Positions 18,229-33,857 of a DNA stretch of 64,000 nt are shown in pieces (position 1 is the stretch's first letter; the number at the start of each line of letters is the position of its first letter). The notes under the pieces were generated by a model that worked only from the letters and a program-made list of their open reading frames with translations, made no database searches and was not told the DNA's origin. This stretch comes from Candidatus Cloacimonadota bacterium (lineage in GTDB: Bacteria > Cloacimonadota > Cloacimonadia > Cloacimonadales > JAIOQZ01). The stretch is from assembly GCA_021108395.1 (NCBI GenBank), contig JAIOQZ010000058.1, positions 1 to 64,000 of the forward strand, read 5' to 3'. The position numbers and the translations under genes were made by a program.

Positions 18229-18858
18229 TTATCGCATCCCCTCCATCTCACCGGCTTCTTCCAGGCGTCGCTGGCGCACTCGTATCTCGTCCTTCACCTC
18301 GTCCAGGTTGCGATCCTGGAAGAACACGGCCAGCTTGTAATCGAGCTCCCTGCGGCTACAGTTGAACACGGTCGTCATTCTCTCGATATATTGTTCAACG
18401 AAAACTTCTTTATTCGTTTTCTCCTTTTTTTGCTCCCGTACATCTTTCACCTCATCCCGAAGCTCGGAAGCGGTGAGGCTTGACGCCTTATCGACCCAGC
18501 TTTCGGTTTCCTCGAAGGAGCAGTCTTTCACCATCGGCTTGATGATGTTGAGCTTGTCCATGCCGATGTTAGTCAGTTGCGACTCGACGATATCGAGTTC
18601 GTCAACGAAGAGGTCGTGGATGCCGATGAGACGGGCGGCGAAGCTGCCTGCCATGCCATACTCGCTCTCGACGAATTCCTTGAAATTCTTGTAACCGCGC
18701 AGGCGGAAGGCTTTGGTGCGCTTGATTTCCGAAAGCAGGCTGCCCAGGGCGATGAAGTCGTCTTCGAGACGTTTGCGCAGTGTGGCGACGGCTGCGAACT
18801 TCTCCTCGGTGGTCAGCTCGATGCTCTCTCCGGCGGGGTTGTTATGCGTGTTGTCCAT
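18229..18858 (-). CDS. Conserved-looking hypothetical helical protein
   Basis: I do not recognise the family. The 209-residue product is highly charged and mostly helical, without signal peptide or membrane segment. The N-terminal half (TLRKRLEDDFIALGSLLSEIKRTKAFRLRGYKNFKEFVESEYGMAGSFAARLI split by charged turns) recalls the helix-turn-helix-like N-terminus of DUF3102/ParB-associated proteins. The C-terminal half is a coiled-coil-like charged region. It lies between panB and porX with gaps of 23 and 46 bp, so it is probably co-transcribed with them. Confidence 0.72.
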   Translation of the reverse strand: MDNTHNNPAGESIELTTEEKFAAVATLRKRLEDDFIALGSLLSEIKRTKAFRLRGYKNFKEFVESEYGMAGSFAARLIGIHDLFVDELDIVESQLTNIGMDKLNIIKPMVKDCSFEETESWVDKASSLTASELRDEVKDVREQKKEKTNKEVFVEQYIERMTTVFNCSRRELDYKLAVFFQDRNLDEVKDEIRVRQRRLEEAGEMEGMR

Positions 18859-26607: not shown

Positions 26608-26685
26608 AGCAACTCTTCATCGCAGGCGACAAATACACGCGTTTACGGCAATTTCGTGCTTGACACGAAACACGCTCAATTCATA

Positions 26686-26713
26686 TTGACTTACCGTATT
26701 ATGCGGATATTCT
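26686..26713 (+). promoter_or_regulatory. Promoter of rpsU
   Basis: TTGACT (26686-26691), a 16-bp spacer and TATTCT (26708-26713). A second possible -35, TTGACA at 26660-26665, lies upstream. The promoter is 24 bp before the rpsU start, so the leader is short. Confidence 0.5.
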
Positions 26714-26736
26714 ATAAAGAAGGGAGGTGATTGCAA

Positions 26737-26943
26737 GTGCCTACAGTTTACGCACGAGAAAACGAGTACTTTGAAGTGCTGTTGAAGAAGTTCAAAAAGA
26801 AATGCGAAAAAGCGGCAATCCTGTCTGAGATAAAGAAGCACCAGACTTACGAAAAGCCCAGCGATGCCCGCAAACGCAAGATCAACGCAGCTCGGCGCAA
26901 GATGCTCAAGCAGAAGCGCAAAATGGAACGCTACAACCGGTGA
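26737..26943 (+). CDS. rpsU: 30S ribosomal protein S21
   Basis: The 68-residue S21 is rich in Lys/Arg and starts (M)PTVYARENEYFEVLLKKF. The GTG at 26737 is preferred because GGGAGGTGAT, almost a full anti-Shine-Dalgarno match, ends five bases before it; a TTG at 26731 overlaps that site. It opens the macromolecular synthesis cluster, as in E. coli rpsU-dnaG-rpoD. Its TGA overlaps the yqeY GTG. Confidence 0.95.
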   Translation: MPTVYARENEYFEVLLKKFKKKCEKAAILSEIKKHQTYEKPSDARKRKINAARRKMLKQKRKMERYNR

Positions 26944-27383
26944 TCAACCGCATCGCAGACGACATCAAGCAGGCAATGCGCAGCAAAGACAAAGCGCGCC
27001 TGCTGGTGTTGCGCTCGCTCAAGACCGACCTGATGAATCGCAAGATCGAGAAACGGGCTGAACTGAGCGACGAAGAAGCGCTCGAGGTGGTGCGCAAGGC
27101 TGCAAAAAGCCGCGAGCAGGCCGCCGAGCTCTACGATAAGGGCGAGCGGCCCCAGCTTGCCGCCACCGAACGCGCCGAGATTGAAATCCTGCGCGACTAC
27201 TTGCCCCAGGCGCTGTCAGAGCAGGAACTGCGCGAGCTCGTGCAGGCGGCTGTCACCGAAACCGGCGCCAGCGGTATGCAAGATATGGGCGCGGTGATGT
27301 CTCTGGTGATGGAACGCTCCGAGGGCCGCGCCGACGGCAAGTCCGCCAGCGGCATCGTGCGCTCCATCCTCATGTCGAAGTAA
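26940..27383 (+). CDS. yqeY: GatB/YqeY domain protein
   Basis: The 147-residue YqeY family protein is found next to rpsU in many bacteria. It is helical, with MINRIADDIKQAMRSKDKARLLVLRSLKTDLMNRKIEKRAELSDEEALEVV-type features and the C-terminal GRADGKSASGIVRSIL tRNA-binding-like segment. It resembles the tail of the GatB amidotransferase subunit; a role in tRNA binding is proposed for the family but not proven. The start is a GTG within GTGA, coupled to the rpsU stop. Confidence 0.92.
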   Translation: MINRIADDIKQAMRSKDKARLLVLRSLKTDLMNRKIEKRAELSDEEALEVVRKAAKSREQAAELYDKGERPQLAATERAEIEILRDYLPQALSEQELRELVQAAVTETGASGMQDMGAVMSLVMERSEGRADGKSASGIVRSILMSK

Positions 27384-27405
27384 CCTTCTCAATCGTTTGA
27401 TATTT

Positions 27406-27482
27406 GGGGAGTCCTTCTCCCCTCTTTTTTGGGGAGATGCCATCTCCCTTCTTTTTGGGGAGCCTCTACTCCCTTCTTCTCT
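27406..27482 (+). terminator. Three tandem terminator-like hairpins
   Basis: Three near-repeats of about 26 bp. The first is GGGGAG-TCCTT-CTCCCC then TCTTTTTT (27406-27430). The second is GGGAGAT-GCC-ATCTCCC then TTCTTTTT (27432-27456). The third is GGGAG-CCTCTA-CTCCC then TTCTTCTCT (27458-27482). The first two are good intrinsic terminators; the third has a poor T tract and runs into the ribosome site of cvpA. Confidence 0.8.
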
Positions 27483-27492
27483 GGAGGCGATT

Positions 27493-27975
27493 CTGGTCAT
27501 CGATATCGTCGTCGGACTGCTAACGCTCGCCGGACTGGTCTATGGATTCCGCTACGGTCTGGTGGGCGCAATGGCACATCTGGCCGCCATTCCTGTCGGC
27601 CTCGCTTTTGTCATTCGGCTCAGCCCGATAACTTCTGGCTGGTTTCAGCAGTGGCTGCCCCGCATCCCCGCCGCCATCATCGGCTGGGTGCTCACCTCGA
27701 TGCTGATTGGGCTGGGCGTGGCGCTGCTGTTGCGGCTGGCCAACACCATTCTCAAACGCACCGGACTGAAGACCACCAATCATCTGCTGGGCGGCTGGTG
27801 CGGACTTGTGGGCATGGTGATTGTTCTTGCATTACTCTACCTGATGGTGGGAGTCTTCGCCTCACAAGGTTGGAGCGACTACACAGACCGCCATGTGTCC
27901 TTGCGTTGCCTGCGGGCCGTCGCCCAGGAAATCGAAGGGCGCATGCCTGCCCACATGCTGCCACAGATTCGGTGA
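27493..27975 (+). CDS. CvpA family membrane protein
   Basis: The frame encodes a CvpA-like protein of about 160 residues: IDIVVGLLTLAGLVYGFRYGLVGAMAHLAAIPVGL, then three further hydrophobic segments and an amphipathic tail. Homologous starts align near 27493, but no ATG, GTG or TTG is present there. GGAGG (27483-27487) sits five bases before a CTG at 27493, and an ATT at 27490 is even closer. The only standard in-frame start (TTG at 27397) lacks a ribosome site and would run through the terminator hairpins. I annotate CTG tentatively. CvpA proteins are linked to envelope function, and cvpA-mutS2 pairs are common. MutS2 follows after seven bases. Confidence 0.7.
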   Translation: MVIDIVVGLLTLAGLVYGFRYGLVGAMAHLAAIPVGLAFVIRLSPITSGWFQQWLPRIPAAIIGWVLTSMLIGLGVALLLRLANTILKRTGLKTTNHLLGGWCGLVGMVIVLALLYLMVGVFASQGWSDYTDRHVSLRCLRAVAQEIEGRMPAHMLPQIR

Positions 27976-27982
27976 AGCTGAA

Positions 27983-30313
27983 ATGAACGCTCTGCGGCAG
28001 CTTGAATTCGACCAGATAATCGACCTGCTGGCGACGGAATGCCACAATGAGGCAGGCAAAGCTCTGGCAGCCGCCACAGCGCCGCTTTCCGACGCCACCG
28101 ACATCCGCCATAGACTGGCGCTCACCGGCGAGCTGCAACTGCTGCTGCGACGCGGGCACACGGTTGACCTGCGTGGCGTGAGCGAGATTGCCCGCCTGCT
28201 GCACGAACCCGAACACGACGCCTATGGCTTTGCCGAGTGCGGTCTTATCTGCGCCAACGTGCTGGCCGCCAACCACCTGCCCCGCACCATCGACGAGCAT
28301 GAGGAATTCCCGCTCTACTGCGCCATCCTCGACCGCGTCGAGCCGCTGCCAGCCATCGAGAAACGCTTCGGGGCAATCTTTTCGTCCGAGGGCGAGGTGA
28401 AGGACACCGCCTCGACTGCACTGGCAGGCATCCGCAAACGCCGCCGCAACGTGCGCACCAATATCTATGGCACGCTCGAAAAGCGCATGAGCGATATCCC
28501 GCAGTTGCTGTCCGATGCCATTGTAACCGAGCGCGACAACCGCTTTGTCATCCCGGTGAAGCAAGGCTCCGAGACGTTTGTGCCCGGCATGGTGCACGGT
28601 CGTTCCGGCAGCCGCGCCACGGTGTTCGTAGAGCCGACCGAAGTGGTTGCGCTCAACAACGAACTGAGCACGCTGGGCGACGACGAACGCGAAGAGATAC
28701 TGCGCATCCTCATCGAGTTCTCGCACTTGCTGCGCGAGCATACCGACACCATCCTGGCCAACACCGCCGAACTGGGCAAACTCGACTGTTTCTTTGCCGC
28801 CGCCAGGCTGGCAAACCGTCTCGACGCACATATCCCGCGCATCATTGACGAGCCGCGTCTGCGCCTCGATGGCGTGCGCCACCCGCTGCTCATCGTTGGC
28901 TTTGGCGACCGCGACAAGGTTATCCCCTTCGACATAGAGCTGGGAGGCGAGCGCCGCGTGATGGTGTTGAGCGGCCCCAACACCGGCGGCAAGACCGTCA
29001 CTCTCAAGGCCACCGGCCTGCTGACCGCCATGGCGCTGTCGGGGCTGCCCATCCCCGCCGCCGACACCAGCGAGGTGGGGCTGTTCACGCGCATCTTCGC
29101 CGACATCGGCGACAGCCAGTCGCTGGCGGGGGCGCTGTCCACCTTCTCGGCGCATGTGCAGCGCTTGCAGGCGATGCTCGAGCATGGCGACGAGCGCTCG
29201 CTGACGCTGGCCGACGAGATTGGCAGCGCCACCGACCCCGAGCAGGGTTCGGCGCTGGCTCAGGCCATGCTCGAACGACTCGTCGAGCGTGGCGTTGTCG
29301 GACTGGTGACAACCCACTACACCGCACTCAAGGTCTTCGCGGAAAACGCCGAGGCCTGCGTCAACGCCTCGATGCACTTCGACCCCGACCGCCTCACGCC
29401 CACCTTTCAGTTCAAGCTGGGGCTGCCAGGCAACAGCTTCGCCATCGACGTGGCGCGCCACCTGGGGCTGGATGAAACGCTCATTGGCCGAGCACGCCAG
29501 CTTGCCGGTGAACAAAACGTCGAGCTGACCGACATGATACGCAAAATGAGCCGCGAGAAGCGCGAACTCGCCCGTCAGAGCTATGAGCTAAAGCTCAAGG
29601 GCAGCCTGCTGGCATTGAAGACCGGCGAGTACGAAAAGAAGCTGGCCGCAATTGAGCGAGACCGCAACCAGCTTCGCCGCGAGATGCTGCACGACGCCCG
29701 TGACTGGCTTGCCGACATGCAGCGCGAACTGCAGGCCGAGGTTGACGACATCCGCAAGCTGGGCCGCGCCGAGCAGAAAGCGCGTCTCGAAGAAGTGACT
29801 GCGAGCGTATCTCATCGCCAGCGCGAAATGGCAGACGAAGAGAAGCGCATGCAACCAGGCCGCCAGAAGCTGGGCGCACCGGAAGTTGGCCAGCGGGTGT
29901 GGGTGGAGGACTTCGAGGACAGCGGCGAGATTGTCGAGATTGGGCGAGACCGGGTGCGGGTCAACGTCAACGGTATTCACTACACCACCACCGTTGATCG
30001 CCTGGCAGTGGCGCCGCCGCCGGAGAAGCCGGTAACCGGTGGCCATGTGGTGAGCGAAACTCACGAGGGCAGCAGCCTCGAACTGAACATCATCGGCAAG
30101 ACATTCGACGAAGCAGAGCCGGAACTGGCGGGGTTCATCGACAACGCTATCTTTCAGGGGCTTGGCAAGGTACGCATCGTGCATGGTAAGGGTACCGGCG
30201 CTCTGCGCACCAAAGTGCGCGGCTGGCTGCGGCGTCATCGCAGATGCGGCGAGTTTTATTCGGCGGCGCGAGACGCCGGCGGCGACGGCGTGACAGTGGT
30301 TGGCTTCAAGTGA
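27983..30313 (+). CDS. mutS2: MutS2 family endonuclease/ATPase
   Basis: Start ATG 27983 (MNALRQLEFDQIIDLLATEC), matching family N-termini. The 776 residues contain a core/lever region, Walker A SGPNTGGKTVTLK near 330, Walker B LADEIGSATDPEQG and QSLAGALSTFSAH signature. A long coiled coil (about 510-630) and a C-terminal Smr nuclease domain (LELNIIGKTFDEAE, VRIVHGKGTGALR) follow. MutS2 acts on recombination intermediates or collided ribosomes depending on species, not in mismatch repair. dnaG begins 16 bases later. Confidence 0.94.
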   Translation: MNALRQLEFDQIIDLLATECHNEAGKALAAATAPLSDATDIRHRLALTGELQLLLRRGHTVDLRGVSEIARLLHEPEHDAYGFAECGLICANVLAANHLPRTIDEHEEFPLYCAILDRVEPLPAIEKRFGAIFSSEGEVKDTASTALAGIRKRRRNVRTNIYGTLEKRMSDIPQLLSDAIVTERDNRFVIPVKQGSETFVPGMVHGRSGSRATVFVEPTEVVALNNELSTLGDDEREEILRILIEFSHLLREHTDTILANTAELGKLDCFFAAARLANRLDAHIPRIIDEPRLRLDGVRHPLLIVGFGDRDKVIPFDIELGGERRVMVLSGPNTGGKTVTLKATGLLTAMALSGLPIPAADTSEVGLFTRIFADIGDSQSLAGALSTFSAHVQRLQAMLEHGDERSLTLADEIGSATDPEQGSALAQAMLERLVERGVVGLVTTHYTALKVFAENAEACVNASMHFDPDRLTPTFQFKLGLPGNSFAIDVARHLGLDETLIGRARQLAGEQNVELTDMIRKMSREKRELARQSYELKLKGSLLALKTGEYEKKLAAIERDRNQLRREMLHDARDWLADMQRELQAEVDDIRKLGRAEQKARLEEVTASVSHRQREMADEEKRMQPGRQKLGAPEVGQRVWVEDFEDSGEIVEIGRDRVRVNVNGIHYTTTVDRLAVAPPPEKPVTGGHVVSETHEGSSLELNIIGKTFDEAEPELAGFIDNAIFQGLGKVRIVHGKGTGALRTKVRGWLRRHRRCGEFYSAARDAGGDGVTVVGFK

Positions 30314-30329: not shown

Positions 30330-32057
30330 ATGTTCGACCAGAGTTTGATTGACCAGGTGCGCGAGAACGTCGATATCGTTGACGTTATCCAGAGCTACAT
30401 CCCGCTCAAGAAGGCGGGAAGCGGGTTCAAAGCGCTGTGTCCCTTCCACGAAGAGGACACGCCCTCGTTCAACGTCAGTCGGCAGAAACAGATTTTCAAG
30501 TGCTTCGGCTGCGGCAAGTCTGGCAATGTTTTCACCTTCGTGCAGGAATACGAGAAAATCAGCTTCCCCGAAGCCATGCGCCGTCTGGCGCAACGCGCCG
30601 GAGTGCGCTTGCCGCAGCAGGCCCCGCCTTCTGCCGCCGACCATGCCCGCGACGCCCTGTTTCGCGCCTGCGAGCTGGCCGCCGCGTTTTACCGCAAGCA
30701 ACTGGCAACCATTGGCGAAACAGCGCGAGAATACCTCGAACAGCGCGGCATCGGCGAAAAAACCGTCGAAGCGTTCGACATCGGCTATGCTCCCGACGAC
30801 TTTCAAGCCCTGCACAACTACCTGCGCGAGAAAAGCATCAGCGACAACGATCTGATACGCGCCGGTCTGCTGCGCCGCAACGAGCGCGGCAATGTTTACG
30901 ATTTGCTGCGCCACCGGCTCATCTTTCCCATCCGCAACGGCAATGGCCGCGTGGTGGCGTTTGGCGGGCGGGTGCTCTCGCCCGACCAGCAGGGTGGCAA
31001 ATACATAAACTCGCCCACGAGCGACATCTACACCAAAGGCGAGGAACTGTACGGTCTTTACCAGGCGCGCTACGATATTGGCAAGCGGGAGCACGCGGTG
31101 ATGTGCGAAGGCTACACAGACCTCATCCGCCTGCACGACAGCGGCTTCACGCATGCAGTGGCCAGCCTCGGCACGGCGCTCACAAACCGCCAACTGCACC
31201 TGCTGGGTCGCTATGCAAAGAAGATTGTGCTGCTGTATGACGGCGACCGCGCCGGCCGCACTGCTGCCATGAAGTCCGGCCTCTCCGCCCTCCAGCAGGG
31301 ATTCGATGTGCAGGTGTGCGCCCTGCCTGCCGACCAGGATCCTGACAGCTATCTCGTCGAACAAGGCGCCGAGGCGCTGCAAAAGCTGTTGGACGAGGCG
31401 CCGTCGCTACCCGACTTCGTGAACGCCGACAGCGTAATGGACATGAGCCGCCGCACCAAGGTGGACGTGCTGCGCGACGCCATCCTGCGCATCGACAACG
31501 CCCTGGCGCGAGAGCTGTTTGCCGGCGAAGTGGCGCAGGCCTTTGGGGTATCTGTAACGTCATTGCTCGCAGGCGGTTTGCAGCGACGCAGGAAAAATAA
31601 TGCAGAGCGAGAGCAGTTTTTCCTTGCAAAGAATCACTGGGAACAGGAATGTATCCGATTCATGATGCAACACCCTGAGTTGGTGGAAAATCTTTGTTCC
31701 AAACTGAAAACAGATTACTTTTTCGATGAGATATATCGTGAGCTGTACGAAGTGATTGCCAGACAACCGGAAAGGTTGCAACACGCGTCTTCTCTGCTTT
31801 CGGAGATAGCGAGCGAGGACGTGCGCAACCTGCTGGGCGACTTGCTCATGGACGAGGCACCCGTGCTCACCGAGCCGGAGATGGTCGCCCTGGTAAGGCA
31901 ACGCAAAGCACAGCTCGATTTGCGCCGCATCGAGGAGGCGCTGACCCTGGTTTCCCAGGATTCAGTTGAGTTTACAGAGTTACTTCGCAGGAAAAAGGAA
32001 TTGCAGCAGGAGCTGCACGTTCACGATCGTCGTAAAGTGACAAAAACTTTGTTTTAG
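30330..32057 (+). CDS. dnaG: DNA primase
   Basis: Synthesises RNA primers at the replication fork. The 575 residues carry the CHC2 zinc finger (Cys37, His40, Cys58, Cys61 in LCPFHEEDTPSF and KCFGCGKSGN). The catalytic core has ERGNVYDLLRHRLIFPI and GRVLSPDQQGGKYINSP. A TOPRIM domain follows from about 255 (VMCEGYTDLIRLH, LLYDGDRAGRTA, DQDPDSYLVEQG), then a helicase-binding tail. The ATG at 30330 is preferred over a frame-extending start. Second core member of the rpsU-dnaG-rpoD set. Confidence 0.96.
   Translation: MFDQSLIDQVRENVDIVDVIQSYIPLKKAGSGFKALCPFHEEDTPSFNVSRQKQIFKCFGCGKSGNVFTFVQEYEKISFPEAMRRLAQRAGVRLPQQAPPSAADHARDALFRACELAAAFYRKQLATIGETAREYLEQRGIGEKTVEAFDIGYAPDDFQALHNYLREKSISDNDLIRAGLLRRNERGNVYDLLRHRLIFPIRNGNGRVVAFGGRVLSPDQQGGKYINSPTSDIYTKGEELYGLYQARYDIGKREHAVMCEGYTDLIRLHDSGFTHAVASLGTALTNRQLHLLGRYAKKIVLLYDGDRAGRTAAMKSGLSALQQGFDVQVCALPADQDPDSYLVEQGAEALQKLLDEAPSLPDFVNADSVMDMSRRTKVDVLRDAILRIDNALARELFAGEVAQAFGVSVTSLLAGGLQRRRKNNAEREQFFLAKNHWEQECIRFMMQHPELVENLCSKLKTDYFFDEIYRELYEVIARQPERLQHASSLLSEIASEDVRNLLGDLLMDEAPVLTEPEMVALVRQRKAQLDLRRIEEALTLVSQDSVEFTELLRRKKELQQELHVHDRRKVTKTLF

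Positions 32058-32111: not shown

Positions 32112-33857
<1,746 letters not shown>

Follow-up and report, generated by a model that had tools for sequence, protein, structure and literature searches.

In Escherichia coli, T1, an intrinsic terminator between rpsU and dnaG, partly controls the abundance of the rpoD transcript, and mutations that should weaken the terminator became more frequent in chemostats limited for glucose, as described in an excerpt of PMC7863352 that cites Versalovic 1993 for the control of rpoD. The arrangement is of general interest in that, in many bacteria, one operon sets the ratio of a ribosomal protein to primase and a sigma factor. Familiar tandem terminators are made of unlike hairpins at the ends of genes or operons, as in rrn operons and expression vectors. 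A literature search with most subscription journals outside its reach found no natural triple of homologous units, and no paper was found on terminators of yqeY, rpsU or dnaG or on operon terminators in Cloacimonadota. Here we analysed a stretch of 64,000 nucleotides from a Candidatus Cloacimonadota bacterium (the window) in which three similar hairpins stand in a row inside such an operon. We consider it quite probable that this array is a three-unit intrinsic-terminator attenuator within an operon of the macromolecular-synthesis type.

The hairpin array and its operon

The genes rpsU, yqeY, cvpA, mutS2, dnaG and rpoD form a contiguous operon, in this order, on the + strand, as judged from open reading frames and Pfam matches. 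Its features in the window are as follows.

26660..26713, + strand: likely operon promoter region 5' of rpsU (TTGACA-16-CATATT and TTGACT-16-TATTCT; consensus matches only)
26737..26943, + strand: rpsU, ribosomal protein bS21 (GTG start; Pfam PF01165, E 5.5e-17; extended Shine-Dalgarno GGGAGGTGAT upstream)
26940..27383, + strand: yqeY (Pfam PF09424, E 1.5e-46; its start overlaps the rpsU stop)
27406..27430, + strand: terminator hairpin 1 (27406-27422) with its T tract; GGGGAG-TCCTT-CTCCCC followed by TCTTTTTT
27431..27456, + strand: terminator hairpin 2 (27431-27449, longest stem) with its T tract; GGGGAGATG-C-CATCTCCC followed by TTCTTTTT
27457..27482, + strand: terminator hairpin 3 (27457-27474) with degraded T tract TCTTCTCT; GGGGAG-CCTCTA-CTCCC followed by TTCTTCTCT
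27483..27487, + strand: GGAGG, Shine-Dalgarno of cvpA, abutting the array and, in the fold predicted for 27384-27500, largely paired
27493..27975, + strand: cvpA, colicin V production family (Pfam PF02674, E 7.5e-14)
27983..30313, + strand: mutS2 (Pfam MutS_V and Smr)
30330..32057, + strand: dnaG, DNA primase (Pfam)
32112..33857, + strand: rpoD, primary sigma factor (Pfam)

Between the stop codon of yqeY (27383) and the likely start of cvpA (27493) lie 109 bases, most of which are taken up by the three hairpins. Their stems have 6, 8 and 6 pairs and their loops 5, 3 and 6 nucleotides, so that each has the GC-rich stem (5 pairs or more) and short loop of an intrinsic terminator; in the fold, the 8 pairs of copy 2 include a terminal G-U pair and enclose a 3-nt loop. 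T occupies 7, 6 and 5 of the 8 positions that follow copies 1, 2 and 3, which gives each a T tract, marginally so for copy 3, and a C interrupts the tract in all three. Hairpin energies are −11.5, −10.8 and −8.9 kcal/mol, respectively. TRF reports a tandem array at 27403-27478 with 3.0 copies of a 25-nt unit, a repeat search finds successive copies offset by 27 and 25 (roughly 26 bp), and a terminator scan calls all three units on the + strand. What the preliminary description had seen at this place, three tandem terminator hairpins of about 26 bp between yqeY and cvpA, the second with a longer stem and the third with a degraded T tract running directly into the cvpA ribosome site, was thus recovered in the sequence, by TRF and by the terminator scan.

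Such a triple is hard to obtain by chance. Among 2000 shuffles of the gap, one strict terminator hairpin appeared in 253, two in 3 and three in 0. Terminator-like matches as such are common: across 864 kb of sequence from the source genome (about 30% of it, window included) there are 1038 of them, against 842, 904 and 945 in three Markov controls, so most genomic matches are also expected. Clusters of at least two terminators within 20 nt number 15 in the 864 kb, and the single triple among them is the array of the rpsU operon, while each Markov control has 9 pairs and no triple. The pattern GGGGAGN{3,9}CTCCCNTC occurs three times in the 2.89 Mb genome, always in the array, and not at all in a reversed control; with no further matches genome-wide, a dispersed (REP-like) repeat family was rejected. 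A bidirectional terminator was likewise discarded, given a minus-strand side without a T tract. Rfam, searched with the window at the gathering threshold, returned tRNA only and no family in the array. The cvpA frame is open upstream across the array to a TTG at 27397, yet this start has no Shine-Dalgarno, and a translated array was set aside; the open frame is expected because the array is poor in A.

GGAGG at 27483, adjoining the tail of copy 3, is the sole plausible Shine-Dalgarno of cvpA. No ATG, GTG or TTG is present at the homologous start of the gene, leaving CTG at 27493 or ATT at 27490 as candidates. Such a rare start (window 27490-27495) would lower cvpA expression further. At the other end of the operon, the extended Shine-Dalgarno of rpsU (window 26725-26739) follows the pattern GG[ATG]GGTGA, which is found at 89 of 93 rpsU loci (the window and, in relatives, L037-L130), before cvpA at 0 of 92 loci and before mutS2 at 0 of 95. 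In Flavobacteriales, an extended Shine-Dalgarno of rpsU serves autoregulation by bS21, according to excerpts of PMC9976891 and PMC10931766. Because the rpsU site here resembles that case, bS21 autoregulation may also operate in the Cloacimonadota lineage of the window.

One terminator in relatives and the origin of three

The order comprises 106 genomes including the source genome, and a match to the N-terminal 406 residues of MutS2 is present in 97 of them. The upstream side was taken for 94 relatives, none of the source genus, with G044 and G091 (partial matches) left out. It carries rpsU or yqeY upstream of cvpA-mutS2 in 92, the other two stretches ending at a contig edge, and all 92 readable relatives keep the order rpsU-(yqeY)-cvpA-mutS2. 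A strict hairpin-plus-T scan found exactly one terminator in 86 of these 92 gaps; the other 6 gave none, and no gap gave two or more, whereas shuffled versions of the relatives' gaps gave none in 914 of 920 and one in 6. On inspection by eye, five of the six misses do have a hairpin (G014, G017, G020, G028 and G076, though the one in G028 has a poor T run), and none is visible in G085. The source genome alone, compared with its 92 relatives in the order, has three terminators in the gap; its sister genus has a single unit, GAGGGGAGTTTCCCCTC+TTTTTT. The preliminary description had held that absence of the array from close relatives would count against it. The triple is in fact absent from all 92, and yet a single terminator is conserved at the site in 86 of them, so that what the relatives share is the terminator and not its number.

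In the same class outside the order (families f12 and f13), 15 loci have an adjacent rpsU, and a clear intergenic terminator is present at two and a weak one at a third (G120); seven further scan matches fall within cvpA and were not counted. Because only these two clear cases and one weak case occur outside the order, the putative attenuator appears to be mainly a property of the order. Most rpsU-cvpA-mutS2 loci of the sister family f13 (L132-L149) have no terminator in the rpsU-cvpA gap. In G122 and G123 the arrangement is rpsU-terminator-mutS2, without cvpA between. One genome, G049, has an additional rpsU-cvpA-mutS2 set in which rpsU is again followed by a terminator (L194, G049:C34); this set is either duplicated or foreign DNA within the assembly. 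A MutS2 search found only two distant loci in general genome contigs and none in viral contigs.

The hairpins differ in sequence between families. When hairpins were chosen by structure alone, the core CAGGGA...TCCCTG was present in 32 of 41 hairpins of family f10, and GGGGAG...CTCCCC in 26 of the 44 hairpins outside it. Sequence comparison shows that both arms of the stem differ together between families, as pairing demands. In its fuller form, ACAGGGA...TCCCTGT followed by T5, the f10 hairpin lies directly downstream of rpsU at all 29 f10 sites (28 genomes), 27 of them in the retrieved gaps, another in G044 and the last in the second rpsU-cvpA-mutS2 set of G049; it also occurs at four sites elsewhere, in genomes of family f8. 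A manual count gives 46 sites of the GGGGAG form in f8 genomes, 25 of them in the yqeY/rpsU-cvpA gap. A general terminator type of these genomes was considered and rejected, since each genome has few sites with the motifs, most of them at the locus of the rpsU operon. By these sequence counts, the hairpin sequence is locus-specific.

Compared with one another, the copies of the array match in 19-21 of the 22 positions of arms and tail and in 2-3 of the 5-6 positions of the loop; Fisher tests of this contrast give p values of 0.08, 0.06 and 0.01, two of which miss 0.05. These identities are compatible with duplication and subsequent selection for stem and tail, weakly if taken alone. Most likely, the triple arose on the source lineage by local duplication of an ancestral unit, with stems and tails retained and loops free to vary; because the sister genus has one unit, multiplication on the source lineage is the most parsimonious account.

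The same genome contains another tandem-terminator array of homologous units (L168, G000:C18, 18446-18590), with two strict hairpins at 18486-18553 in a period of 41 and a degenerate third hairpin before them. Its neighbour identity (18486-18553) is 0.75, against 0.24-0.45 in the other 13 two-member clusters of the 864 kb scan. The open reading frame that begins downstream of it at 18638 we take to be RIO-kinase-like.

Proposed partial read-through and the competing explanations

Terminator strength was estimated with a d'Aubenton-Carafa-type score d. Copies 1, 2 and 3 score −0.7, −6.6 and −26.1, whereas the single units of f8 have a median of 19.9 (30 of 34 f8 loci) and that of the sister genus reaches 34.4, so that every unit of the array falls below the sister's single unit and copy 3 is lowest. 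A second, cruder scoring covered 85 relatives, with a trimming rule by which many stems retained T bases; its median is −2.2, which makes copy 1 (−0.65) average, not weak. The idea that three weak units replace a single strong one is accordingly a guess, although a supported one. Copy 3 may be a decayed, non-terminating unit.

We propose that RNA polymerase would start 5' of rpsU, transcribe rpsU and yqeY, and then meet three weak terminators in series. A large fraction would halt at the array and yield a plentiful short transcript of rpsU-yqeY whose 3' end is protected by a hairpin, whereas the remaining polymerases would read through into cvpA-mutS2-dnaG-rpoD; because only this remainder reads through, the low-demand genes would be held at a fixed lower level. 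Each unit would thus terminate in vivo, read-through of the array would be partial, and the three short-stem units with C-interrupted T tracts would jointly match one better unit of the relatives. The array probably sets the amount of downstream message and, by analogy with E. coli T1, would lower cvpA-mutS2-dnaG-rpoD relative to rpsU-yqeY. Hairpins with T tracts, polarity on one strand, the operon itself and one orthologous terminator in nearly all relatives support attenuation.

The preliminary description had offered insulation and attenuation side by side. Its reading of the hairpins as terminators holds in structure, T tracts, strand and the one terminator conserved throughout the order; as to function, tuned partial read-through fits better and full insulation less well. 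Near-complete insulation would mean that the array stops almost all transcription and that a separate promoter in cvpA or mutS2 drives mutS2-dnaG-rpoD. Terminators in series multiply, a single unit already scores high in the sister genus, and E. coli rpoD has extra internal promoters, each of which would suit such an arrangement. However, a simple consensus scan, itself a weak test, gave no sigma-70-like match on the + strand from the rpsU promoter region to 34000, which includes everything from the array onward; the units of the array score low one by one; and the gene order kept in 92 of 92 readable relatives suggests that co-transcription matters. Because dnaG and rpoD lie downstream, no + strand promoter match follows, the units are weak and E. 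coli T1 offers an analogy, we favour attenuation and regard near-complete insulation as quite unlikely. Neutral slippage, in which one terminator suffices and the additional copies are inert by-products of duplication, is unlikely too, despite several observations in its direction: the T tract of copy 3 is degraded, more than one copy is found in no relative, and the second homologous tandem pair (L168, 18486-18553) indicates that the genome may be prone to such duplications. Against it, stems and most of the tails have stayed alike while loops changed (with the modest statistics given above), all three copies can still fold, and each is weaker than the single unit of the sister genus.

The copies could also pair with one another, either 1R-2L and 2R-3L across the T tract or nested as 1L-3R and 1R-3L, and such cross-copy pairing might act as a two-register RNA switch that disarms the terminators or buries the Shine-Dalgarno of cvpA in read-through RNA. 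Since one arm can nearly replace another, the full array favours the nested fold (−35.2 kcal/mol, compared with −31.2 for three local hairpins), with equilibrium pairing of 0.72 each for 1L-3R, 1R-3L and 2L-2R. In the 117-nt segment, bases 27485-27487 of the Shine-Dalgarno are unpaired at only 0.04-0.11, and the whole fold has a z of −2.19. These pairings, however, arise by construction in any tandem repeat of one hairpin, and local hairpins fold first during transcription, whereas the nested state requires all three copies to be transcribed. The outer helix shifts once more flank is folded, no signal or factor is known, and single-copy relatives could not form such a switch at all, which makes it very unlikely. 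A broader and still improbable version takes the order-wide hairpin to be a sequence-specific regulatory RNA of the rpsU-rpoD operon, the array here flipping between terminating and read-through registers and hiding the cvpA ribosome site; because the stem is nearly unique to the locus in each genome, a reader of the hairpin, perhaps bS21 or a termination factor, may exist. The array might instead be a binding site for an RNA-binding protein such as CsrA and no terminator. The genome has a csrA gene (G000:C16 54649-54801, 86.3 bits), the three repeats each contain GGA, and the hairpin sequence is conserved and locus-specific. CsrA, however, binds its sites in loops, and here GGA lies within the paired 5' arms of the stem; a T tract follows every hairpin, and other families swap the sequence yet retain hairpin and T tract. 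We give this explanation hardly any weight.

Comparison with known systems

Read as a three-unit attenuator, the array would make its lineage, with three weaker terminators for one, a natural test of the trade-off between strength and number at an essential operon. With a sequence-conserved terminator 3' of rpsU throughout the order, the principle of E. coli T1 would reach into a lineage that has received little study, and some 90 naturally occurring versions of a single attenuator could be compared.

The likeness to E. coli rpsU-T1-dnaG-rpoD lies in a conserved intrinsic terminator 3' of rpsU and in an operon that ends in dnaG and rpoD. By contrast, T1 is one long-stem hairpin (fold −20.9 kcal/mol) directly before dnaG, whereas the array consists of three short hairpins after yqeY and before cvpA-mutS2-dnaG-rpoD, with a stem sequence unrelated to that of T1. 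Because the operon is conserved and the hairpin is locus-specific 3' of rpsU, the array is, by analogy, the local counterpart of T1, a single unit multiplied; it would be T1-like in working, and orthology is not claimed. As in tandem (double) intrinsic terminators, the units stand in series, each presumably adding to total termination, but they differ from these as three homologous copies inside an operon that needs read-through. Classical attenuators based on a leader peptide or a riboswitch similarly place a terminator before downstream genes to limit read-through, and the array differs from them in that no leader peptide was identified, no Rfam family was matched and no regulatory ligand is known. 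The array is a switch of a known kind in an unusual form rather than a new kind of switch.
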